Origin: Desulfovibrio psychrotolerans
GTDB lineage: Bacteria; Desulfobacterota; Desulfovibrionia; Desulfovibrionales; Desulfovibrionaceae
Direction: 5' to 3'
Length of the DNA: 64,000 bases
NCBI RefSeq assembly: GCF_013340305.1
Contig: NZ_BLVP01000008.1
Coordinates: 545,408-609,407 of the forward strand
In this document: positions 2,122 to 13,773 of the stretch, piece by piece
How the letters are laid out: every line of letters begins with the position of its first letter
Position numbering within the stretch: position 1 is the stretch's first letter
Position numbers and translations under genes: made by a program
The notes under the pieces: generated by a model
Seen by the model: the letters and a program-made list of their open reading frames with translations, nothing else
Database searches by the model: none
Told to the model about the DNA's origin: nothing

Positions 2122-4617
2122 ATGACAAGAATCACGTGTGCGTGCATGTCGCCGCAGGAACAGCGTCTGCATGATAAGATCGCGGGCAAGGAAGACAAAT
2201 TCCGCAAGACGCACAGCCGCGTCTTTAAGCTGCTTGAGCGTTTTGACGGCCAGAAGCCGCGCATAGACATTGAACGCGCTCTGTATTTCACCCAGTCCAT
2301 GAAGCAGACTGAGGGCCAGCCGCTGGTACTGCGCTGGGCCAAGGCGCTTAAGCACATTGCTGAAAACATGACCGTCTATGTGCAGGAAGACCAGCTGATT
2401 CTTGGCCGTGCAGGCTGCGACGGACGCTATGGTATTCTGTATCCCGAACTGGACGGCGACTTCCTTGACATTGCCGTGCGCGACCTGCCCACGCGCAAGC
2501 AGTCTCCCGCCACCATCACCCCCGAAGACGCCAAGATCGTCATCGAAGAAATCGCACCGTTCTGGAAAGGCAAGACCTACCACGAGGCGCTGAACGCCGC
2601 CCTGCCCCCGGAAGTGCACAAGCTCACCTACGATGATCCGCAGGGGCTGACCTCGCGTTTCATCGTCAACGAAACCTCTTCCTTCCGTTCATCCATCCAG
2701 TGGGTGCACGACTATGAAAAGATTCTCAAGCGCGGTTTCAACGGCATCCGTCAGGAGGCACTGGACAAGCTGGCAACGCTGGACCCGCTGAGCCCCGTGG
2801 ACAGCTGCGAGAAGAAGCCCTTCCTCGAAGCCGTGGTCATTGTGTGCGAAGCCATTGTGCTGTGGGCCAAGCGTCACGCCGTGGTCGCCCGCGAAGCAGC
2901 CGCAAAGGAAGCCGATCCCGCGCGCAAGCAGGAGCTGCTGCTTATGGCAGACATGGCCGAGCATGTGCCCGGCAACCCCGCCCGCAACTTCTATGAAGCC
3001 GTGCAGAGCCAGTGGTTCACCCAGATGTTCTCGCGCATAGAGCAGAAGACCGGCACCACCATTTCCAACGGCCGCATGGACCAGTACTTCTATCCTTTCT
3101 ACATCAAGGATATTGAAGCAGGCGTGCTGACCGAAGACAAGGCCATGGAACTGCTTGAGTGCATGTGGGTGGGCATGGCCGAATTCATCGACATGTACAT
3201 CTCTCCCACCGGCGGCGCCTTCAACGAAGGGTACGCACACTGGGAAGCAGTGACCGTGGGCGGCCAGACTCCGGACGGACGCGACGCCACCAACGAACTG
3301 ACTCACCTTATCCTCAAGTCCAAGCGCGAATTCCCGCTGCATTACCCGGACCTTGCGGCGCGTATCCATTCCCGTTCGCCGGAAGCCTACCTGTGGGACG
3401 TGGCGGAAACCATCAAGGACGGTTCCGGTTTCCCCAAGCTGATTAACGATGAAGAAATCGTGCCCCTCTACGTTTCCAAGGGCGCGACCTTTGAAGAGGC
3501 GCTGGACTACGCCGTTTCCGGCTGCACCGAAGCGCGTATGCCCAACCGCGATACCTACACCTCCGGCGGGGCCTACATCAACTTTGCCGCCGCTGTGGAA
3601 ATGGTGCTGCGCAACGGCCGTATGAAGAAGTTCGGCGACGAGCAGCTGGGTATGGAAACCGGCGACCCCAGAAACTTTGCCACGTGGGATGAGTTCTGGA
3701 ACGCCTATGTGCAGCAGCACCTGCTGTTCCTCAGAACCGCCTTTGTGCAGCAGTACCTCATCAACAACATCCGTGCCCGCCACTTTGCGCAGCCCATGGG
3801 TTCCGCCATGCACGACCTGTGCATGAAGCACTGCATGGACCTGCACCAGACTCATATTCCGGAAGGCATCAACCTCGGCTACTTCGAGTTCATGGGCCTG
3901 GGCACGGTGGTGGACTCCCTTTCGGCCATTAAGAAGCTTGTGTTTGAAGACAAGAAGCTGACCATGGACGAGATTCTCTCCGCCATCGACAACGACTTCG
4001 AAGGCTGCGAGGACGTGCATGCCATGCTGCGCTCCGCTCCCTGCTACGGCAACAACGACGAGTATGCAGACGCCATAGGCCGCGAGCTGGACCGCATTTC
4101 CGTGGAATACGGCGGCAAATACAGCAAGGAACTGGGCATTCACAACGACCTGCGTTACGTGCCCTTCACCTCGCATGTGCCCTTCGGCAAGGTGGTTTCC
4201 GCCACGCCCAACGGACGCAAGGGCTTTACCCCCCTGTCCGACGGCTCCTCCGCCTCTCATGGTGCAGACGTGAACGGCCCCACCGCCATTCTGCTCTCCA
4301 ACTACAACACCAAGAACATGAGCAAGCGCGACCGCGCGGCACGCATGCTGAACATCAAGTTCACCCCCAAGAGCCTTGAGGGTGAGCAGGGAACGGAAAA
4401 GCTGGTGTCGTTCATCCGCACCTTCTGCGACCTGAAGCTGTGGCATGTGCAGTTCAACGTCATTAACCGCGACACGCTCATTGCTGCCAAGAAGGACCCG
4501 CAGAAGTACCGCAACCTCATCGTGCGTATTGCGGGCTACAGCGCCTACTTTGTGGACCTGTCGCCCGACTTGCAGAATGACCTTATCGCACGCACCGAGC
4601 ATGAAGCGATAGCATAA
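2122..4617 (+). CDS. islA: Isethionate sulfite-lyase, glycyl radical enzyme
   Basis: 831 residues. It cleaves the C-S bond of isethionate to sulfite and acetaldehyde by glycyl radical chemistry, in the cytoplasm. With the ATG preceded by CAGGAG, the catalytic cysteine is C468 and the base E470 (motif GCTEAR), and the glycyl radical site is G805 (RIAGYSA). R189, Q193 and R678 also fall where I recall the sulfonate-binding residues of characterised Desulfovibrio/Bilophila IslA (IseG). This exact numbering supports both function and start. GCTE separates it from choline and diol lyases, which carry GCVE. The adjacent islB activase, TRAP transporter and sigma-54 activator complete the pathway. 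Sulfite would feed dissimilatory sulfite reduction and acetaldehyde would go to acetyl-CoA or ethanol; those genes are not in the window. Confidence 0.95.
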
Positions 4618-4687: not shown

Positions 4688-4762
4688 GCTGCCTGATGGA
4701 GCAGGGGGTGCGCGTTGCCCCGCCCCGGAGTCCCAACCATTCTCAGCCAGCCAGAGGGAAGC

Positions 4763-5710
4763 ATGAGCGTTCTTGAAGACAAGAAGAAACGAGGCATAGT
4801 ATTCAATATTCAGAAATACTCGGTGCATGACGGGCCGGGCATACGCACCATCGTGTTCCTGAAGGGCTGCCCCCTTGCCTGCCGCTGGTGCAGCAACCCG
4901 GAATCGCAGCAGCGGGAGCCGGAACTGGCGTATCACACCGGGCGGTGCCTCACCTTTGCCAAGTGTACGCGCTGCCTGCAGGCCTGCCTGCGGGGTGCCA
5001 TCATACGCGAACCGGACGATACCCTGCGCATAGACCGCGCGCTGTGCGAGGGCTGCCCCAAGCATTGTGCCGAAGCCTGCCCCGCGCAGGGCCTCATCGT
5101 CTACGGGCAGGAACGCACTGTGGATGATGTGCTCAAGGTGGTGGAGCAGGACGCGGCCTTTTATACCCGTTCCAGCGGCGGCCTTACCCTTTCCGGCGGC
5201 GAGCCGCTCATGCAGGCCGAATATGTGCTTGCCCTGCTGCGCGAGGCACGCAGGCGCAGAATAAAGACCGCCGTGGAAACCTGCGGCATGGTGCCGTGGA
5301 AGACCATGGAGGCCGCGGCTCCCTATCTGAATTACATCCTCTACGACATCAAGCATATGGACAGCGCCATGCATGAGGAGCATACCGGATGCCCCAACGC
5401 GCTGATTCTGGACAATTTCCGCAAGCTGATGGAACTGGTGCCCGATACCCCCGTGCTTGCCCGTACCCCCATCATTCCCGGTTTTAACGACACGGAAGAA
5501 GCAGTGGCAGCCATTGCGGAATTTCTGCGGCCGTACCCTGCGGTGCGGTATGAGATGCTGCCCTATCACCGGCTGGGAACGCAGAAGTATGTGTTCCTTG
5601 ACCGTACGCCGCCCATGGCGGATGTGACGCTGGGCAAGGATGTCATGCCCAGGCTGGTTGCTGTTGCACGGGGCATTCTGGGCGACAGGGTCGAGGCAGC
5701 GCACGCCTAG
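4763..5710 (+). CDS. islB: Isethionate lyase-activating radical-SAM enzyme
   Basis: 315 residues. It is a glycyl radical enzyme activase: it uses SAM and a [4Fe-4S] cluster to install the radical on G805 of IslA. The radical-SAM cysteines are C36, C40 and C43 (GCPLACRWC, the CX3CX2C spacing of activases), and a ferredoxin-like insert follows with two cysteine groups (CTRCLQAC and CEGCPKHC). SGGEPL is the SAM-binding GGE motif. The start ATG at 4763 is chosen because GAGGGA precedes it and residues SVLEDKKKRG lead straight into the conserved core; the longer frame from 4715 has no ribosome site. Function as the IslA partner is inferred from adjacency and family. Confidence 0.93.
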   Translation: MSVLEDKKKRGIVFNIQKYSVHDGPGIRTIVFLKGCPLACRWCSNPESQQREPELAYHTGRCLTFAKCTRCLQACLRGAIIREPDDTLRIDRALCEGCPKHCAEACPAQGLIVYGQERTVDDVLKVVEQDAAFYTRSSGGLTLSGGEPLMQAEYVLALLREARRRRIKTAVETCGMVPWKTMEAAAPYLNYILYDIKHMDSAMHEEHTGCPNALILDNFRKLMELVPDTPVLARTPIIPGFNDTEEAVAAIAEFLRPYPAVRYEMLPYHRLGTQKYVFLDRTPPMADVTLGKDVMPRLVAVARGILGDRVEAAHA

Positions 5711-5862: not shown

Positions 5863-7257
5863 ATGGTACACCGTTCCGCGAACATTCTTGCCAAACATTT
5901 CGAGAGCATTCTCGATGCCCTGCCCGACGGGGTGTTTATCTCCGATGCCTCAGGCGTGGCGTTGCGGGTGAACCGCATGTATGAGCAGCTTACCGGGCTG
6001 AAGCAGGACTACGTGCAGGGCAAGCAGGTGCGCACGCTGGTGGAGGAGGGGGTTTTCGACCGGGTGCTCAATCCGGAGATCGTGCGAACGGGAAGGCCCG
6101 CCACCCATGTGCAGCAGTTGCAGGACGGTAAGCGGCTGGTGCTTTCCGGTTTTCCCGTGTTCAACGAGGCAGGGGACCTGCGGCTTGTGGTCACTTTTGT
6201 CCGCGACATTACCATGATTACGCGGATAAATGAGCAGATGGAGGAGCAGCGCCAGCTCATCGACCAGTTCCACAAGCAGATGGCCTATCTTGCCAACGAG
6301 CAGAACCGCGCCCTTGCTCCCGTGTTCGAAAGCCACGCCATGCGCGCGGTGGTGGACATGCTGGAGACCGTGGCACCCACGGATGCCTCCATTCTCATTC
6401 TGGGAGAAACAGGAGTGGGCAAGGACGTGTTTGCCCGTCTTACCCACGCCAAAAGCGCCCGCAAGGATAAGATTTTTCTTAAGGTGGACTGCGGCGGCAT
6501 TTCGGAAACCCTTACGGAGTCGGAGATGTTCGGGTATATGCCCGGCGCGTTTACGGGGGCTTCCAGTAAGGGCAAGGCCGGGTTCTTTGAACTGGCGGAA
6601 GGCGGTACGGTCTTTCTGGATGAAATAGGCGAATTGCCCCTTTCCATGCAGACAAGGCTGCTGCGGGTGCTGCAGGACCGCGAGATCATGCGCGTGGGCG
6701 GAACCCGCCCCACCAAGGTGGATGTGCGCATTATCGCCGCCACCAACAAGAATCTGGCGGAATGCGTGGAGGCGGGCACCTTCCGGCGCGACCTCTACTA
6801 TCGGCTGAACGTGGCGGAGGTGACCATTCCCGCCCTGCGGGACCGTGCGGAAGACATCCGCCCTCTGGTTGAGCATTTCCTGCGTCATTATTCCACCAAG
6901 TACCACAAGAGTCTGGCCATGATGGAGGTTGTGCACGGCATCCTTTCCGGGTACCAGTGGCCCGGCAACGTGCGCGAACTGCAGAACATGGTGCACGGTC
7001 TGGTCATCACCCACAAGGGGCCGCTCATCTCCCCCCGGGATCTGCCATCGCACATCGTGGAGGACAATGCGCGGGAACAGTCCTATGCCGACCTCATCCT
7101 CGGGGGCGGAAGACCGCTGAAAAGCATTGTTGCCGAAATGGAGCGCGATCTGCTGCGGCAGGCCATTGAGTTTCACGGCTCGGTGCAGAAGGTGGCGGAG
7201 GTGTTTCAGGTGGACCGCAGCACCATCTTCCGCAAAATTCAGAAAGCGGACTCATGA
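5863..7257 (+). CDS. PAS-domain sigma-54-dependent activator (probable regulator of isl/dct)
   Basis: 464 residues, start ATG after GAGGGAG. Order of parts: an N-terminal PAS sensor (about 10-120), a short coiled linker, an AAA+ domain with Walker A GETGVGKD near 183, the sigma-54-contacting GAFTGA loop near 228, Walker B VFLDEIGEL near 250, and a C-terminal Fis-type helix-turn-helix ending the protein (KVAEVFQVDRSTIFRKIQ). It has no receiver domain, so it probably responds to a small molecule or redox cue through PAS. It lies directly downstream of islB and is the obvious activator for the paired -24/-12 promoters upstream of islA and dctP. Target and ligand are inference. Confidence 0.9.
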   Translation: MVHRSANILAKHFESILDALPDGVFISDASGVALRVNRMYEQLTGLKQDYVQGKQVRTLVEEGVFDRVLNPEIVRTGRPATHVQQLQDGKRLVLSGFPVFNEAGDLRLVVTFVRDITMITRINEQMEEQRQLIDQFHKQMAYLANEQNRALAPVFESHAMRAVVDMLETVAPTDASILILGETGVGKDVFARLTHAKSARKDKIFLKVDCGGISETLTESEMFGYMPGAFTGASSKGKAGFFELAEGGTVFLDEIGELPLSMQTRLLRVLQDREIMRVGGTRPTKVDVRIIAATNKNLAECVEAGTFRRDLYYRLNVAEVTIPALRDRAEDIRPLVEHFLRHYSTKYHKSLAMMEVVHGILSGYQWPGNVRELQNMVHGLVITHKGPLISPRDLPSHIVEDNAREQSYADLILGGGRPLKSIVAEMERDLLRQAIEFHGSVQKVAEVFQVDRSTIFRKIQKADS

Positions 7258-7390
7258 ATTTGTGAGAACCCGCGAAGCATGAATGGTGGCGATTCCCGAA
7301 TTTCCGGCAGGGCAGGCCGGCAGTCGGGAGCTGCTTCTGTTTTTTCCGTATATCCCCCCGGAACACATTACTCTGCAAACGGATACATGC

Positions 7391-8119
7391 ATGTTTGAAA
7401 CCGGACTTTCCCTTACCACCTATGCGCTTGCCTTCGGAACCGTTTTTCTGGGTGCCCTTGCACAGGGCGTGGCGGGATTCGGCCTTGCCCTTATCATCGG
7501 GCCGCTGCTGGTGCTGATAAGCCCTGTTTTCCTGCCCGGCCCGGTGGTTTTGCTTGTGGCCGTCATCACATCCGTAATGGCCATACGGGGACGCAGCAAT
7601 ATTGAGCCGCGCAACGTGCGCCGCACCATAGGCGGGTATCTTGCCGGTACTGTTGTTGCTGCCATGCTGCTGAGCAACCTGCCCCCGCGGGAGACAGGTC
7701 TGCTGCTCGGCGGGTTGATTCTTGCGGCTGTGGGCATGAGCGTTTCCGGCATTTCGCTGCCCGCCACGGGGCGGGTGCTGTTTTCCGCAGGGATATTCGG
7801 GGGCCTTATGGGCACTGTGAGCGGCGTGGGGTTGCCGCCCGTGGCCCTTGTGTTGCAGAACGAGCCGGGGCCGAGGCTGCGCGGCACCCTTGCCTGTGTG
7901 GGGTTTATCTCCATCCTCATGGCGGTGGTCGCCCTTTCGCTGGTGGGCCGTATAGGACAGACCGAACTGCTGCTTGCCGCCATGCTGACACCGGCGGTGC
8001 TGCTTGGCTATATGGCATCCATTCCCGTTGCCGCATACTGTGATGCGGGCTACACCCGTCCCGCCGTTTTTCTGCTCTCTGCCGTCAGCGCGGTTACGCT
8101 TATCGTGCGGAGCGTGTAG
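7391..8119 (+). CDS. TauE/SafE-family membrane protein
   Basis: 242 residues from the ATG at 7391; an in-frame ATG at 7283 would add 36 residues lacking a hydrophobic character, and neither start has a strong ribosome site. About seven to eight hydrophobic segments with small-residue repeats (GALAQGVAGFG, GGLMGTVSGVG) match the TauE/SafE anion exporter family. Members of this family near sulfonate-degrading genes are proposed sulfite or sulfonate exporters. Here it follows the islAB regulator, so sulfite overflow or a C2-sulfonate are reasonable substrates (inference). It could form the last gene of the islAB-regulator unit. Confidence 0.82.
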   Translation: MFETGLSLTTYALAFGTVFLGALAQGVAGFGLALIIGPLLVLISPVFLPGPVVLLVAVITSVMAIRGRSNIEPRNVRRTIGGYLAGTVVAAMLLSNLPPRETGLLLGGLILAAVGMSVSGISLPATGRVLFSAGIFGGLMGTVSGVGLPPVALVLQNEPGPRLRGTLACVGFISILMAVVALSLVGRIGQTELLLAAMLTPAVLLGYMASIPVAAYCDAGYTRPAVFLLSAVSAVTLIVRSV

Positions 8120-9070
8120 CTCCTGAATCCGCACTGTGCTCGGACATTCCGCAAGCTCCTTCCGGACCGCATGCCGGCACCACGGTACCCTCCCCATTCT
8201 TAGTGGCCTGAAAAGCAAAGGCTGTGCAGCCGTTCTGATTTTCCGGGCGGGAGAGATGCTCCCGGTCTTCATGTGGGGGCGCATCCCCTGTTGGCAAAAC
8301 ATTCCCCTAGGTGGAATGTTTTTGTTGTTTTGCAGGGGGCGACGGGAGTGTCGCTCTTTCGGCCCGCAGAAGCATCCCGTATGTGTCGCCATGGAAGGGC
8401 GTTTCGCTAAGAGCGCGGTGATTCCCTCTGCACTGTGCTGATACCATTCATTTTTCTTTGGACAGCTTCCGGTTTTTCAGGGCGCGCAGGTCATCGGGTG
8501 GGGATGCCTGTATTTGATAATGCGACAGGTGTGACCTGTTGGCGCATGTCCATGGCAGGAGGCGGCCAACCGGGGTGTATGGGGCAGCTGAATAATTTAT
8601 CTGACGAAGTATGAAAAATTACATGGTGTTATGATTTAGATTCCCCTTATGGGGAAAGTGGAAAAAGGTGTTGACTTTTCCCTGCGGGGAAGGGGGTATT
8701 TTCATAAAACGCAGGCCGGATGCCGCATGTTTCTGCCCTGCGGGGCAGGGAGCGGCCAAAGGTTTGCCACCCGTCTGCCAAGGCACTATGCAGAGATGCC
8801 GCCGGGTGCGCCTGTGCCGGGGCGTGTCTTCTGCCGCACGGGCAATGGCACAATGTTGTGCTTTGTGCGGCATGAATGTGGGCGGCCCTGATGTGGACGG
8901 AAGGGGACGGAAAGGATTTTTCAACAGTCAGGTGGGGCTGCTGCCGGAGCAGGCCTGATGGCCTGATGGCATGTGGTTTTGGTTTCTTCCGCCATGCCTG
9001 TTGCCGGAGTAATCCGGGCAGCGGGGGCGGTGGTGAAGCGGCCCGGTGACATACCGGAAAGGGCAGAACC
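8120..9070. other. 950-base non-coding gap between TauE/SafE gene and pduS
   Basis: No frame on either strand looks like a gene. It contains an AT-closed hairpin (8296-8322), an AT-rich stretch around 8590-8640, and three short hairpins in a row: 8641-8656 (TTCCCC/GGGGAA), 8678-8691 (TTCCC/GGGAA) and 8733-8748 (CTGCCC/GGGCAG), the last two with the same TGCG loop. A TTGACT at 8671 has no well-spaced -10. No -24/-12 element was seen for pduST. Confidence 0.6.
8296..8322 (+). terminator. Hairpin, possible terminator after the TauE/SafE gene
   Basis: A 10-bp perfect stem, AAAACATTCC (8296-8305) with GGAATGTTTT (8313-8322), loop CCTAGGT, followed by TGTTGTTTT. It is AT-rich at its base and could act in both directions. 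It lies 177 bases after the stop codon, so a role as an operator cannot be excluded. Confidence 0.45.
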
Positions 9071-10396
9071 ATGCGAGAGCATATAGTTGATACGATACGA
9101 AGCGCAGGGGTAGTGGGAGCTGGCGGAGCCGGTCTGCCTACCCATGTGAAGGCCGCTGCAACGGTGGATACCGTTCTGGTAAACGGGGCTTCCTGTGAGC
9201 CGTTGCTGGCGAGTGACCCGTATCTTCTTGAGTCGGAAGTGGAAACCGTGGTGCGCGGGCTGGAAGCCGTGATGGAATGCACCGGCGCGAGTCGCGGTGT
9301 CATCTGCCTGAAGGCGAAGCACGGCAAGGCGATGGAAGCGGTAAAGGCCGCCGTTGCGAAAGCGGCAGGCGGCAGGCTGGACGTTTTTGCGCTGAAGGAT
9401 TTCTATCCGGCCGGTGATGAGCATGTGCTGGTGCATGAGGTGCTGGGACGTACTGTGCCGGAACGCGGCATTCCCCTGCAGGTGGGGGCCGTGGTGAGCA
9501 ACGTGGAGACCCTGTTTAATGTTGCCCGGGCCATGCAGGGTGCGCCTGTTACCCATCGGTATCTCACGGTGACGGGAGCGGTGCGTAATCCCATGGTGGT
9601 GAAGGTGCCCGTGGGCACGCCCGTGGCCGATGTCATTGCCTTTGCCGGCGGGGCCGCCATTTCCGAGTACCGCATTGTGGACGGTGGCCCCATGATGGGC
9701 CGCGTGCTGCCGGAGGGTAACCCGTCCGTGACCAAGACCACCAGCGGGCTGCTTCTGCTGCCGTCGGACCATACCGTGGTGGCGGGCAAGAGCATGGACC
9801 CGGTCCGGCTGCGCCGCATAACCAATACCGTGTGCTGCCAGTGTACCCGCTGTACCGATCTGTGTCCCAGAAACCTGCTGGGGCACACCCTGCACCCGCA
9901 CCGGCTTATGCGCATCCCGGATACGCTGGTGGCTAGCAGTCCGGTTGCCAGAGAGGCGTTGCTTTGTTCCGAATGCGGGCTGTGCGAGAAGTTTGCCTGC
10001 CCCATGCAGGTATCTCCCAGAGAGGTCAACGCCCAGATCAAGAAGGTGCTCATGGCGGCCGGTGTGAAATGGGAATCCGCCGGGGAGGAATTGCGGGGGA
10101 ATGCCTTCCGCGTTGTCCGGCAGGTGCCCACCTCGCGGTTGCTGCAGAGGCTTGATCTTGAGCGGTATGACGCGCATCCGGCCTATGCCGGGGAATTTAC
10201 ACCCTCTGTTGTGCGCATTCGTCTGGGGCAGCATATCGGCGCACCCGCGCAATGCGTGGTGGCAACGGGCGACCGCGTACGCTGCGGGGACCTGATAGGC
10301 GAGATTCCGGAAAAGGCCATGGGAGCCCGGGTTCACGCCAGCATGGACGGCGTGGTGGAAGCCATCTGCGATGGCGTGGTAACAATCAGGGCTTGA
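9071..10396 (+). CDS. pduS: PduS-type flavin/iron-sulfur reductase of microcompartments (RnfC-like)
   Basis: 441 residues. The N-terminal RnfC-like part holds GAGGAGLPTHVK (about 15-26, flavin/NADH site region); a SLBB-like segment follows (about 155-200), then two [4Fe-4S] motifs: CCQCTRCTDLC (about 255) and CSECGLCEKFAC (about 300). The C-terminal tail resembles a barrel-sandwich fold. PduS proteins reduce cobalamin or pass electrons across a microcompartment shell, working with PduT. RnfC is a weaker alternative: no rnfDGEAB genes follow and a pduT gene does. It is separated from pduT by 18 bases. Placed near isethionate lyase it might serve acetaldehyde redox chemistry, but no direct evidence links them. 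Confidence 0.85.
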   Translation: MREHIVDTIRSAGVVGAGGAGLPTHVKAAATVDTVLVNGASCEPLLASDPYLLESEVETVVRGLEAVMECTGASRGVICLKAKHGKAMEAVKAAVAKAAGGRLDVFALKDFYPAGDEHVLVHEVLGRTVPERGIPLQVGAVVSNVETLFNVARAMQGAPVTHRYLTVTGAVRNPMVVKVPVGTPVADVIAFAGGAAISEYRIVDGGPMMGRVLPEGNPSVTKTTSGLLLLPSDHTVVAGKSMDPVRLRRITNTVCCQCTRCTDLCPRNLLGHTLHPHRLMRIPDTLVASSPVAREALLCSECGLCEKFACPMQVSPREVNAQIKKVLMAAGVKWESAGEELRGNAFRVVRQVPTSRLLQRLDLERYDAHPAYAGEFTPSVVRIRLGQHIGAPAQCVVATGDRVRCGDLIGEIPEKAMGARVHASMDGVVEAICDGVVTIRA

Positions 10397-10414
10397 TAGG
10401 AGCAGGTGAAGGAT

Positions 10415-10966
10415 ATGAATCTTCGCACCATCGGTTGTGTGGAACTGAACAGCGTGGCTTTGGGCATGCTGGCGGCGGATGCCATGGTAAAGGCGGCTGC
10501 CGTGGAAATAGTGATTGCCCGTCCTACCTGTCCCGGGCGGTATCTTGTGATTGTGACCGGCGATACGGGAGCGGTGGAGAGTTCCGTGAAGGCGGGGCGT
10601 GCTGCGGGGGGCGACCTGATGGTGGACTGGTTCACCATTCCCAGCGTGCATCCTGACGTTATTCCGGCTCTCAGCGGCACAACGCAGACCGGCCCCATAG
10701 GCGCGCTGGGCATTATCGAAACCTGTACCGCCGCCTCCTGCATTCTTGCGGCCGATGCCGCAGCCAAGTCTGCGCTGGTGTCGCTGATTGAAATTCGCAT
10801 TGCCGCAGGGCTGGCAGGCAAGGCCTTTGTGGTGATGACGGGCGATGTGGCCTCTGTGGAATCTGCCGTGCAGTCCGGTGTGGCTGGCGTGGGTGATGCC
10901 GGTCCGGTACTGAGCCATGTGGTTATTCCGTCTCCCAGTCCGGGACTGAAGGCCCAGTTGCTGTAA
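10415..10966 (+). CDS. pduT: PduT-type trimeric microcompartment shell protein with Fe-S site
   Basis: 183 residues made of two tandem BMC domains (about 3-88 and 95-180; the second opens with GALGIIET). A single cysteine, C39 in RPTCPGRY, sits at the position where PduT trimers bind a central [4Fe-4S] cluster at the pore. The ATG at 10415 is preferred over a GTG at 10406 because the latter is only 3 bases from AGGAG and because the length then equals the usual PduT. The pair PduS-PduT is the electron conduit known from propanediol-type compartments. No BMC-H or BMC-P gene is present within the window, so either the shell is encoded elsewhere or the pair acts alone. Confidence 0.9.
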   Translation: MNLRTIGCVELNSVALGMLAADAMVKAAAVEIVIARPTCPGRYLVIVTGDTGAVESSVKAGRAAGGDLMVDWFTIPSVHPDVIPALSGTTQTGPIGALGIIETCTAASCILAADAAAKSALVSLIEIRIAAGLAGKAFVVMTGDVASVESAVQSGVAGVGDAGPVLSHVVIPSPSPGLKAQLL

Positions 10967-10992
10967 TACGGGACAGGGTATCATGACGTAAT

Positions 10993-11035
10993 CGGCGGGG
11001 AGGAGGAGCACATTGCTCCCTCTCCCCGCCGTTTT
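10993..11035 (+). terminator. Rho-independent terminator after pduT
   Basis: A 17-bp stem with one mismatch and one G-T pair (10993-11009 with 11015-11031), loop ACATT, followed by TTTT at 11032-11035. It lies 26 bases after the pduT stop, between convergent genes, and ends the pduST unit. Confidence 0.85.
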
Positions 11036-11067
11036 CTGTCTGCACGCTAACGTCCGGCCGCAGGCAT

Positions 11068-13773
11068 CTATTCCCGCAGAGCAAGGCGCAGCCAGTTTTC
11101 CGCTATGGTGCGGCAGAAACGCTCAGACTGCTCCGCAAGGACGGGGAGGTCCGCACGCAGGTTGCGGAAGAAGGCTTCATCGTACTGTGCGGTTTTGGCG
11201 TTCGCGGGGCGGTGGCGGAACAGCCGTATCCAGTTGTCGGCTATGGCGGCGTCTGCCTCCAGATGGAACTGGAATCCGTAGGAGGCGTTGCCCACGCGGA
11301 AGCACTGGTTGGGGCATTGGTCCCCGCGGACAAGCAGGGTGGCGGTCTGCGGCAGGCCGAAGGCATCCTCATGGTAGGACATGAGGGGAGGGATGGCATC
11401 CACGCCGTGGAAGACGGAATCAAGCCGTGCCGCGTCAGTGGGGGTAAAGCGGATGAAGCCGAACTCGGGCGCGTCCATGGTCCGCAGGGTGCCGCCCCAC
11501 GCCCGCGCAAGCAACTGGCTGCCGAGGCATATGCCTGCCACAGGTTTGCGGGCAGCATCGAAGGCACGCATAAGGTGCAGAAGCGCGGGGAAATGCGGCG
11601 AGCCCGCATCATCACCGGCATGCTGCGCACCGCCCAGCACCACCAGCCCGTCCCATTCTTCCGGTGTTTGCGGGAGCCCGTGCGCCTCTGCTGCTCCTTT
11701 GGTTTTGCCGGGCATGACGGTGGCAAGCCGTGCTCCCGCCCGTTCCAGAGATTTGCAGAAATTGCCGCCGGGGGCGTCTTCATCGTGCTGCACGACGAGG
11801 ATGCGCGGTGCAGGCGGGCCTGAAGAAGGCTCTACCGCCACGCAGGTTTCGTAATAGGGCGTGCCCAGCCCCACCAAACTGGCAAGGTCTCGGGTGAGCC
11901 GGTTCAGGCCGTGCCCCGCCTTCATCCAGCCGCCGCGTTCCGCCACCAGCACATCGGGGCGCTGCCCTTGCTGCGTGCGCAGGGTGGCGCGTATGGCTCC
12001 CACCGCACTGCGCACGGTGACGGTATCCCCTTGCGCAAGGCCCTGCCGGGCAGCTTCCGCCGGAGCGAGAATGACCACCGGCAGAGGGGTGTGTTCCGTC
12101 ATGGTGCGTTCCGAACAGATGGCACCGTGCGGCGCGATGGTGAGCAGGCGGAAGGGATAGGCCGGGTCGGTCTTTTCCAGCAACTCCGGGGAAAATTCCG
12201 TCATGAACTGATAGTTGCCGGAAGGGGTGGCAAAGGTTTTATCCGCATAGGGGACCATGGGCGCGGGATAGCGGAAGGCGGCGTTGGCAAGGGCATCCAG
12301 ATCGCAGCCGTGCGCCCGGAGCGGTGCGCAGAGGTCGTGCAGCCAGTCCCTGACCGGGCGGCGGAACCGTTCTGCAAAGGGAAAGCGGACGGCCAGATCG
12401 TGGAACATGTGAAATTCTGACCGGCACAGGCCCACGGGGGCTATGGCCTGATTTACTGCCCCCACGTAGTTGTGGCCGTAGCTGGCCATGACATCCTGTT
12501 CTTCCAGAAAGGTGGTGGCGGGCAGGAACACATGGGCATGGTCGGCCGTATCGTCCATGAAATGACCTGAATAGACGACAAATTCCGCCTGCGAGAAGGC
12601 CTGCGCCACCTTGCCGGAGTTGGGCGCCATGCACACGGGGTTGGATGCCGTGACGTAAATCATGCGGATGGGCGGCTCGTGGGCGTTCAGGATATCTTCG
12701 CCGATGGTGGGCATGCGCAGGGACCGGCGGGGCGGATTGAGGCTGTCTCCCCAATAGTGCTGGTCGTAGGGCCCGTATTCCTCAAACCCCTGGCTCACGC
12801 CGCCCCCGGCAATGCCTATGTTGCCGGAAATGGCTCCCAGCGCGTCTATGGCGCGCAGCGAATAGTGGGCGTGTTCATGGCGGTGCAGGCCCCAGCCCAG
12901 AAGTATGGAGGTGGGCTTCTGCCGCATGAGGGTTTCTGCCAGAAGTTGCGCGTCTGCAACCGGAACGCCGCTGCGCTGGCACAGGTCTTCCACGCTGAAC
13001 TGGGCAAGGATACCCAGATATTCCGGTGCGCCCGCACTGTGCTGCGCAAGGAAGGTGCGGTCTTCCGCCCCGGCGGCAAGGATGAGCTTGGCGGCGGCCA
13101 TGGCAAGAAAGGCGTCTGTGCCTGCCTTGGGGCGGATGTGGCGGGTGGCCAGCGGCACGGTTTTGCTGTGTGCCGGATCCACCACAATGACGCTGCCGCC
13201 GCGTTTGCGGATGTCGTGGATGACGGGCACAAGGCTGATGTTGGTGGAGACGGGATTGCGCGCCCACAGAATCATGGAGGCGCTGTTGTAGTGGTCCAGC
13301 GGGTCGTGGGAGACGCGTTCGCCGAAGTCCAGATTTTGCGAGGCCTGCCCCGTGCCGCCGCACAGGGAGCCGCGCGTGGTGGTAACGCCGCCGAAGAGGT
13401 TGAAGAAGTATCTGTTCAGCAGTTTAAGGGCCGTGCGTTCGCCGTAGCCCTGATAATACAGGATGGCTTCCGGGCCGGAGGCATCGCGTATGGCGGTCAT
13501 GCGCAGGGCGATAAGGTCAAGGACCTCGTCCCATGTGGCGCGTCGCCACGGGGCCTTTGTGCTGGGCCTGACCATGGGGTGGGTTACGCGCTCCGGGCTG
13601 TAGACCCGGTGGACATAGCGGGCGCATTTCACGCAGGCGGCCCCGCGCGTGAGGGGGTGGCCGGGGTCGCCGGAAAGCCGTATGAGGCGGCCGTCTTCTA
13701 CCGTGGCGGTAAGCCCGCATGTGTTGGGACAGTCTCTGGTGCAGGTGGTGATGATATGCCTGCGTTCACCCAT
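11068..13773 (-). CDS. Molybdopterin oxidoreductase fused to a class-I glutamine amidotransferase domain
   Basis: 901 residues; AGGAGG lies 7 bases before the ATG. The N-terminal ~650 residues are a DMSO-reductase-family catalytic subunit: [4Fe-4S] ligands C11, C15, C19 and C47, a candidate molybdenum ligand C138 in RGSLCGG, WARNPVSTN, and a C-terminal dinucleotide-binding domain. No twin-arginine signal is seen, so it is probably cytoplasmic. From about residue 654 a GATase-1 domain follows, with nucleophile C near 748 (GICLGSQ) and the His-Glu pair near 836 (FQFHLEAD), so the triad looks intact. Separately encoded GMP-synthase-like amidotransferases are common; fusion to a molybdoenzyme is unusual to me. 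No electron-transfer subunit is adjacent. Substrate unknown. Confidence 0.85.
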   Translation of the reverse strand: MGERRHIITTCTRDCPNTCGLTATVEDGRLIRLSGDPGHPLTRGAACVKCARYVHRVYSPERVTHPMVRPSTKAPWRRATWDEVLDLIALRMTAIRDASGPEAILYYQGYGERTALKLLNRYFFNLFGGVTTTRGSLCGGTGQASQNLDFGERVSHDPLDHYNSASMILWARNPVSTNISLVPVIHDIRKRGGSVIVVDPAHSKTVPLATRHIRPKAGTDAFLAMAAAKLILAAGAEDRTFLAQHSAGAPEYLGILAQFSVEDLCQRSGVPVADAQLLAETLMRQKPTSILLGWGLHRHEHAHYSLRAIDALGAISGNIGIAGGGVSQGFEEYGPYDQHYWGDSLNPPRRSLRMPTIGEDILNAHEPPIRMIYVTASNPVCMAPNSGKVAQAFSQAEFVVYSGHFMDDTADHAHVFLPATTFLEEQDVMASYGHNYVGAVNQAIAPVGLCRSEFHMFHDLAVRFPFAERFRRPVRDWLHDLCAPLRAHGCDLDALANAAFRYPAPMVPYADKTFATPSGNYQFMTEFSPELLEKTDPAYPFRLLTIAPHGAICSERTMTEHTPLPVVILAPAEAARQGLAQGDTVTVRSAVGAIRATLRTQQGQRPDVLVAERGGWMKAGHGLNRLTRDLASLVGLGTPYYETCVAVEPSSGPPAPRILVVQHDEDAPGGNFCKSLERAGARLATVMPGKTKGAAEAHGLPQTPEEWDGLVVLGGAQHAGDDAGSPHFPALLHLMRAFDAARKPVAGICLGSQLLARAWGGTLRTMDAPEFGFIRFTPTDAARLDSVFHGVDAIPPLMSYHEDAFGLPQTATLLVRGDQCPNQCFRVGNASYGFQFHLEADAAIADNWIRLFRHRPANAKTAQYDEAFFRNLRADLPVLAEQSERFCRTIAENWLRLALRE

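Follow-up and report, generated by a model that had tools for sequence, protein, structure and literature searches.

The closest described relative of the system considered here is the GRM1 (type I cut) locus of D. alaskensis G20 (PMC4207490, PMC6325248), whose CutC and CutD, AldDH2 without catalytic cysteine, PduL, EutJ, EutN, EutP and shell genes all recur on a single contig, C3, of the genome under study; the difference is that pduS-pduT stands in the operon in seven mapped relatives, whereas in our genome it lies on another contig behind a predicted cut-type promoter of its own. Acetaldehyde in D. alaskensis is said to be disproportionated by microcompartment enzymes (PMC4215793), and that source makes no mention of PduS. 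The IslA (IseG/GUF) microcompartment of Bilophila and others has IslAB, a TRAP transporter and PduS-PduT in one neighbourhood (PMC8667426, PMC6453916), as found here, but the isl locus described below has no BMC-H or BMC-P gene and an extension-less amidohydrolase, and the PduS-PduT beside it is of cut type with a cut-type promoter. With the Pdu microcompartment the present pair has in common the PduS domain layout, the cluster cysteines and the PduT pore cysteine; in contrast, the host system uses a glycyl radical enzyme rather than B12, and the TIGR02526 cut-off for PduT is missed. Satellite BMC loci are incomplete contiguous sets of shell genes away from a main locus (PMC4207490, PMC8217296), as is the present locus, which differs from them in being an electron-conduit pair; some satellites are fissions of the main locus (PMC8217296). 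The roles of PduS, PduT and GrpU in glycyl-radical microcompartments are regarded as an open question (PMC6325248).

We analysed a stretch of 64,000 nucleotides (the window) from Desulfovibrio psychrotolerans, whose draft genome (G000) comprises 47 contigs; the window lies on contig C8 (876 kb), and C3 measures 56 kb. In our view pduS-pduT (hereafter pduST) is probably a satellite locus of the single GRM1 choline microcompartment of this genome, relocated from the cut operon.

The unit consists of pduS (9071-10396, +), an open reading frame of 441 aa identified by domain search as a flavin/Fe-S oxidoreductase, and pduT (10406-10966, +), encoding a tandem BMC shell protein of 186 aa from a GTG start, or of 183 aa from an alternative ATG at 10415. 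PduS has been defined as a four-domain protein of ∼49 kDa, and PduT by the pore motif C-[PSA]-G-[KRS]-[YF] (PMC6325248). The window protein carries Complex1_51K, SLBB, Fer4_17 and RnfC_N in that order, i.e. the 51K and SLBB domains, a 4Fe-4S dicluster and RnfC_N within one ∼49-kDa protein, and both tetracysteine sets are present (Cys 255/258/261/265 and 299/302/305/310), invariant in 12 aligned sequences; from its class it is predicted to bind FMN and oxidise NADH. In PduT the profile search recognised two BMC domains (142.5 bits; cut-off 24.5), and the pore motif is CPGRY, whose cysteine is Cys42 counted from the GTG at 10406 or Cys39 from the ATG at 10415 and is in register with 3nwg and 3pac in both alignments, so that the ligand for a putative pore [4Fe-4S] cluster is present. 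Against NCBIfam TIGR02526 it scores 133.5 bits, below the curated cut-off of 250.3. The first-pass annotation, which used the ATG numbering (C39), had judged both genes intact, and the domains, the eight cluster cysteines and the pore cysteine bear this out. It had also placed a strong terminator after pduT: a strong hairpin does close the unit at 10990-11034 (+; folding of 10960-11070 gives -50.5 kcal/mol, z -4.2), but with only a short run of T, and it is absent from the output of the terminator scan.

No shell gene of the BMC-H or BMC-P type had been seen nearby, and genome searches agree, since contig C8 yields just the two BMC domains of pduT and no EutN. Of the ten PF00936 domains in the genome, the remaining eight are on C3, as is the one PF03319 (EutN) gene; the shell set is thus found on C3, with C8 contributing pduT only. 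Profile searches placed there a GRM1 cut operon (C3:26134-41114, -) in the order BMC-T, AldDH2, CutC, CutD, BMC-H, AldDH1, BMC-H, PduL, EutJ, a 197-aa protein, EutN, BMC-T, a 142-aa protein, BMC-H, ADH, an EutS-like BMC protein and EutP, where EutJ was named by synteny, Pfam giving an Hsp70/FtsA-like fold. CutC scores 1667.6 bits with TIGR04394 (cut-off 1050), the match beginning at residue 60, and has a short N-terminal extension; the second AldDH lacks the catalytic cysteine (FDNGTVC in AldDH1, FDNGIAS in AldDH2). Both features fit the description of GRM1 (PMC4207490, PMC6325248). Besides pduT, the genome has a second BMC-T of this kind in the cut locus, with the pore CSGRY and 118.4 bits with TIGR02526, and therefore pduT may not be indispensable. 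Near the operon, a frame of 5238 codons (C3:8000-23713, -; L012), cut by the end of the stretch, looks nonribosomal-peptide-synthetase-like by eye.

The suggestion that pduST joins a shell encoded elsewhere is thereby borne out as far as genes go, the C3 operon being complete except for pduST. Between ADH and EutS there is a 202-bp gap with a continuous junction, and no remnant of pduST was found in it. The cut loci of seven relatives (G002, G009, G004, G121, G095, G044 and G097) have the C3 order with PduS-PduT directly before EutS, preceded by ADH or, in G004 and G097, by BMC-H, no ADH being found between BMC-H and PduS in these two. These seven fully mapped loci represent six of the 19 other family genomes with a PduS of at least 65% identity, plus G004; of the remaining 13, G148 shows the same order in its mapped part, G108 was mapped and differs, and for ten the PduS-EutN distance alone was read. 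In G050, seemingly the genome of locus L075 (identical PduS), the gene order also differs from the C3 type.

The region upstream of pduS also points to the cut operon. MerR-activated promoters have a dyad inside a -35/-10 spacer of 19-20 bp. This layout is found at the predicted pduST promoter (8671-8702, +), which consists of a -35 TTGACT, a 20-bp spacer with a dyad, and a -10 TATTTT; the promoter upstream of the first cut gene likewise has TTGACT and a -10, separated by a 20-bp spacer in which the dyad has an identical centre position, and activation by a MerR-type regulator is predicted for both. The two regions share a 40-bp match (window 8659-8698; 82.5%, E 1.2e-4). A consensus of cut promoters that left the window site out found one site in the window, 8671-8698, with three mismatches (0/100 shuffles); these are three specified positions, and pduST has another -10. 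The consensus has no mismatch upstream of cut in G002, G009 and G044, four in G097 and six in G121 and G095. A degenerate pattern covering both sites hit cut and pduST only, at up to three mismatches in 3.79 Mb (control 0), but as the window site contributed to its design, the consensus and a position weight matrix (PWM) are the fairer tests. The PWM, built from six cut promoters including that of G000 (G095 was left out, its spacer being one base shorter) and again without the window site, gave 46.0 for cut, 25.7 for pduST as the next score and 20.0 for an EamA promoter among 259,434 positions, i.e. both strands of the window and of four stretches, two pairs of which overlap by 4 kb. A cut-promoter scan allowing up to eight mismatches found no site in 11 of 27 stretches (L069, L071, L073, L074, L075, L077, L078, L083, L084, L086 and L156), some of which may not reach the start of a cut operon.

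Upstream of the pduST promoter lies a palindrome, TTCCCCTTATGGGGAA (8641-8656), which resembles the putative operators of the cut promoter and of the divergent EamA promoter on C3; its pattern occurs at four places genome-wide, one of them inside an open frame, against one for the control. The predicted leader is ∼360 nt for pduST and ∼95 nt for cut. A sigma-70 scan of 7900-11200, which permits spacers of 16-18 only, reported no promoter, and no Rfam match was found there at E <= 0.1. The candidate regulator, a MerR protein with a GyrI-like domain (C3:43725-44612), is encoded beside cut and has orthologs near cut in G002, G009, G044, G121 and G095; none was found in the G097 stretch. Among the papers listed in a literature search, none dealt with a choline MerR regulator of this kind, as judged by titles or the beginnings of abstracts. 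Co-regulation of pduST with a shell operon for another enzyme, such as a choline lyase, had been named earlier as the outcome that would speak against the first-pass reading: the operon is present, and the promoter design is shared as far as the sequence tells.

The neighbourhood of pduST nevertheless belongs to another pathway, and the isethionate link needs to be weighed. To its left are islA (2122-4617), its activase (4715-5710), a sigma-54 activator (5863-7257) and a TauE exporter (7283-8119), the last in the same direction as pduST (+), with pduS starting 951 bp downstream of tauE. A TRAP solute-binding gene (-) lies within the window, and a TRAP permease (-), recognised by eye, and an amidohydrolase (-) lie beyond it. 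The islA product was typed by profile and by comparison with PDB chains: it scores 1557 bits with NCBIfam NF048011 (HpsG; cut-off 1000), but its best chains are 7kq3 (isethionate sulfite-lyase; 1537 bits) and 5ymr (1509), both ahead of 6lon (1230), which we take to be HpsG. The 5YMR structure is that of the D. vulgaris isethionate lyase, IseG (PMC6453916). On the chain ranking and the identity of 5YMR we dropped the label HpsG (DHPS enzyme) for this protein, and the earlier naming of the neighbour as IslA-type stands. All eight active-site residues of Bilophila IslA (R189, Q193, W374, C468, E470, R678, F682 and G805; PMC8473560) are kept in the alignment, position 682 being Phe in the window protein and Ile in 6lon, and cleavage of isethionate is its predicted activity. 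Since NF048011 scores an IslA-type protein far above its cut-off, automated DHPS-enzyme labels of isethionate lyases may be wrong. Control of pduST by sigma-54 was considered and rejected, as no site with at most one mismatch occurs in 8120-9070; a match near islA (1952) is one of seven in the window, where 4.35 are expected.

To the right, a gene on the opposite strand (11068-13773, -) encodes a 901-aa protein in which a molybdopterin oxidoreductase is fused to a class I glutamine amidotransferase domain, with an ortholog of 75% identity in G004.

The possibility that pduST serves isethionate, with the acetaldehyde of IslA handled in the cut-type shell and the pair placed by islAB, alone or together with choline, is the best of the alternatives and still an unlikely one. 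IslA and CutC both yield acetaldehyde, and the short distance and common direction of tauE and pduST are as this possibility would have it. Moreover, cut-type PduST sits with islAB in three other assemblies: in L072 and L075 the shell set follows islAB, and in L078 islAB and a sigma-54 gene follow PduST-EutS-EutP. In G108, apparently the genome of L072, the genes for EutN, PduL, AldDH1 and PduST are missing from the CutC operon, and the search of that genome yielded one EutN. Therefore the family mixes both systems, and the adjacency in G000 may not be an accident. Against this, pduST has a cut-type promoter and genome-wide pattern searches found none near islA; a terminator-like hairpin with a T-rich tail (8296-8322, +) separates tauE from that promoter, the scan of 7900-11200 giving seven terminator-like sites with 3.2 expected from shuffles. 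G002, G009 and G004 keep PduST in cut while no IslA-grade GRE was found in them (G004 is 86% complete), and 9 of the 37 family genomes with PduS have no IslA/HpsG-grade GRE.

The amidohydrolase speaks in the same direction. In seven loci where the isl-linked amidohydrolase shares a stretch with shell genes (L072, L075, L078, L101, L104, L107 and L122) it has a C-terminal extension, helix-like by eye in all except L104, whereas it has none in G000, nor in L154 (a partial match), L155 and L158. The enzyme of L157 is cut by the stretch end, and in L149-L153 none was found. L156 is mixed: ∼4 kb separate a cut locus from its GRE (54% identity), and its amidohydrolase (42%) is without extension. This is an argument, though no proof, against encapsulation of isethionate breakdown in G000. 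Taken with the promoter and the hairpin at 8296-8322, it speaks against the link to isethionate that the first-pass annotation had drawn. A variant in which one shell serves both CutC and IslA, and the Fe-S outlet, freed and placed next to islAB under a promoter of its own, allows the count of exporting trimers per shell to be set separately from the shell itself, also seems doubtful to us.

Two observations on these loci stand apart. The IslA-linked Amidohydro_2 proteins (L078:623-1606; L072 from 2739; L163:6810-7643) have a targeting-like extension in shell-gene loci and none in most free-standing loci, and the extension in L078 resembles, by eye, the N-terminal extension of CutC. In the Mailhella MAG of L072 and L159 (apparently G108), the choline operon is seemingly split: some shell genes have stayed with CutC, but AldDH1, PduL, EutJ, the sole EutN found and PduST follow islAB, which suggests one shell with two lyases.

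Returning to relocation from the cut operon, the ancestry of the pair can be followed within the genus. PduS matches were limited to E <= 1e-60, chosen to leave out RnfC, and at this threshold G000 has one PduS. BMC domain totals are ten each in G000, G002 and G009. In a PduS tree of 34 rows (22 from family genomes, 12 from the 80 named loci), G000 groups with G002, G009 and L076, same-genus relatives, with support 100/99, a position that fits inheritance followed by relocation. Owing to the empty slot, the single PduS, the equal domain totals and the tree, the likeliest history of pduST is inheritance followed by a move inside the genome. A repeat search of the pduST site found short repeats only, with no clear flanking direct-repeat pair that would be the trace of a mobile element.

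That the pair is a decaying relic of the cut operon, no longer used, is improbable. It is out of its operon, and its PduS has diverged slightly faster, with 71.6% identity to outgroups against 74.2-75.0% for sister sequences; but both frames are intact, all eight ligand cysteines are kept, and a promoter and a closing hairpin are present.

An assembly artefact, with a misjoin of a pduST whose true place is the cut operon, would agree with its position in relatives and could arise in a draft genome of 47 contigs, and the insertion point has no empty-site counterpart for comparison (no islA was found in G002, G009 and G004, and the G004 contig ends ∼180 bp past the ortholog of the 901-aa gene). 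We regard it as very improbable, however, for both sites are interior to their contigs, the ADH-EutS junction is continuous, and the sequence upstream of pduS, which contains a cut-type promoter of its own, does not resemble the spacers between ADH and PduS in relatives.

Across the family, PduS, EutN and PF00936 are present in the same 37 of 149 genomes, with PduS in none of the 112 others. IslA/HpsG-grade GREs, counted together because NF048011 scores IslA-type proteins over its cut-off, occur in 48 genomes, 28 of them with PduS; from this co-occurrence in 149 genomes, PduS follows shell genes, not IslA. PduS lies less than 11 kb from EutN in 37 of 41 PduS matches. In G064, G112 and G137 (150-200 contigs each) the two are on separate contigs, and G000 is the sole match apart from EutN inside long contigs. 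Among the 80 named loci, 78 have an EutN or BMC domain beyond those directly after PduS; the exceptions are L080, where PduS begins 192 bp from the contig start, and L130, with a PduS-like gene and no PduT. The latter gene (L130:10001-11290), from an Ectothiorhodospiraceae MAG, has no pduT or BMC gene in the 15.5 kb covered. Contig-edge cases excepted, no second clear pduST satellite was found among the 40 other family PduS matches and the 80 named loci.

An electron-transfer module working in the cytosol without a shell, as had also been proposed, has the distance to the shell genes and the L130 gene in its favour and is the least probable reading of all, given that PduS tracks BMC genes perfectly in the family, that the genome holds a shell operon without just this pair, and that the pore cysteine and cluster ligands are retained.

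The history that we favour would thus begin with pduS-pduT as the segment before EutS in the cut operon, from which it would have moved intact beside islAB to be transcribed alone from a MerR-type promoter of cut-operon design. Because this design is common to cut and pduST, the MerR protein (C3:43725-44612) would induce pduST at the same time as CutC and the shell genes. In the choline shell PduT would then be a minor Fe-S trimer with PduS attached to its inner side, and the two would carry electrons from lumenal NADH, produced by acetaldehyde dehydrogenase, to acceptors outside; by an alternative route they would supply the CutC activase. Electron export via the pore cluster of PduT and feeding of the activase are published hypotheses (PMC6325248, PMC8667426). 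If transcribed separately, the pair would give the cell control over how many outlets each shell has.

In terms of the satellite definition of Axen 2014 (PMC4207490), the locus has insufficient contiguous shell genes, pduT being the only one on C8, whereas the definition asks for no other BMC-related gene beside it and pduS is BMC-related. It is therefore satellite-like in Axen's sense, and a satellite according to PMC8217296, which allows shell proteins with enzymes. Satellite formation by fission is a known phenomenon, and its history is unusually clear here; a relocated pduST like that of G000 is not described in the available part of PMC4207490.

The pair stands apart from the shell operon physically and, by sequence, transcriptionally, so that it could be removed, or its dosage varied, with no polar effect on either CutC or the shell; the idea of an electron outlet is therefore open to a direct test. 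From the common promoter there also emerges a small candidate choline regulon made up of the cut operon, an EamA-type transporter and pduST, with a candidate MerR regulator. MerR-type elements resembling the cut promoter also occur at cut loci outside the genus (L087, L159, L053, L052 and L055); that of L087, from Photobacterium alginatilyticum, is accompanied by a MerR gene, and PduST is elsewhere within the cut locus there.
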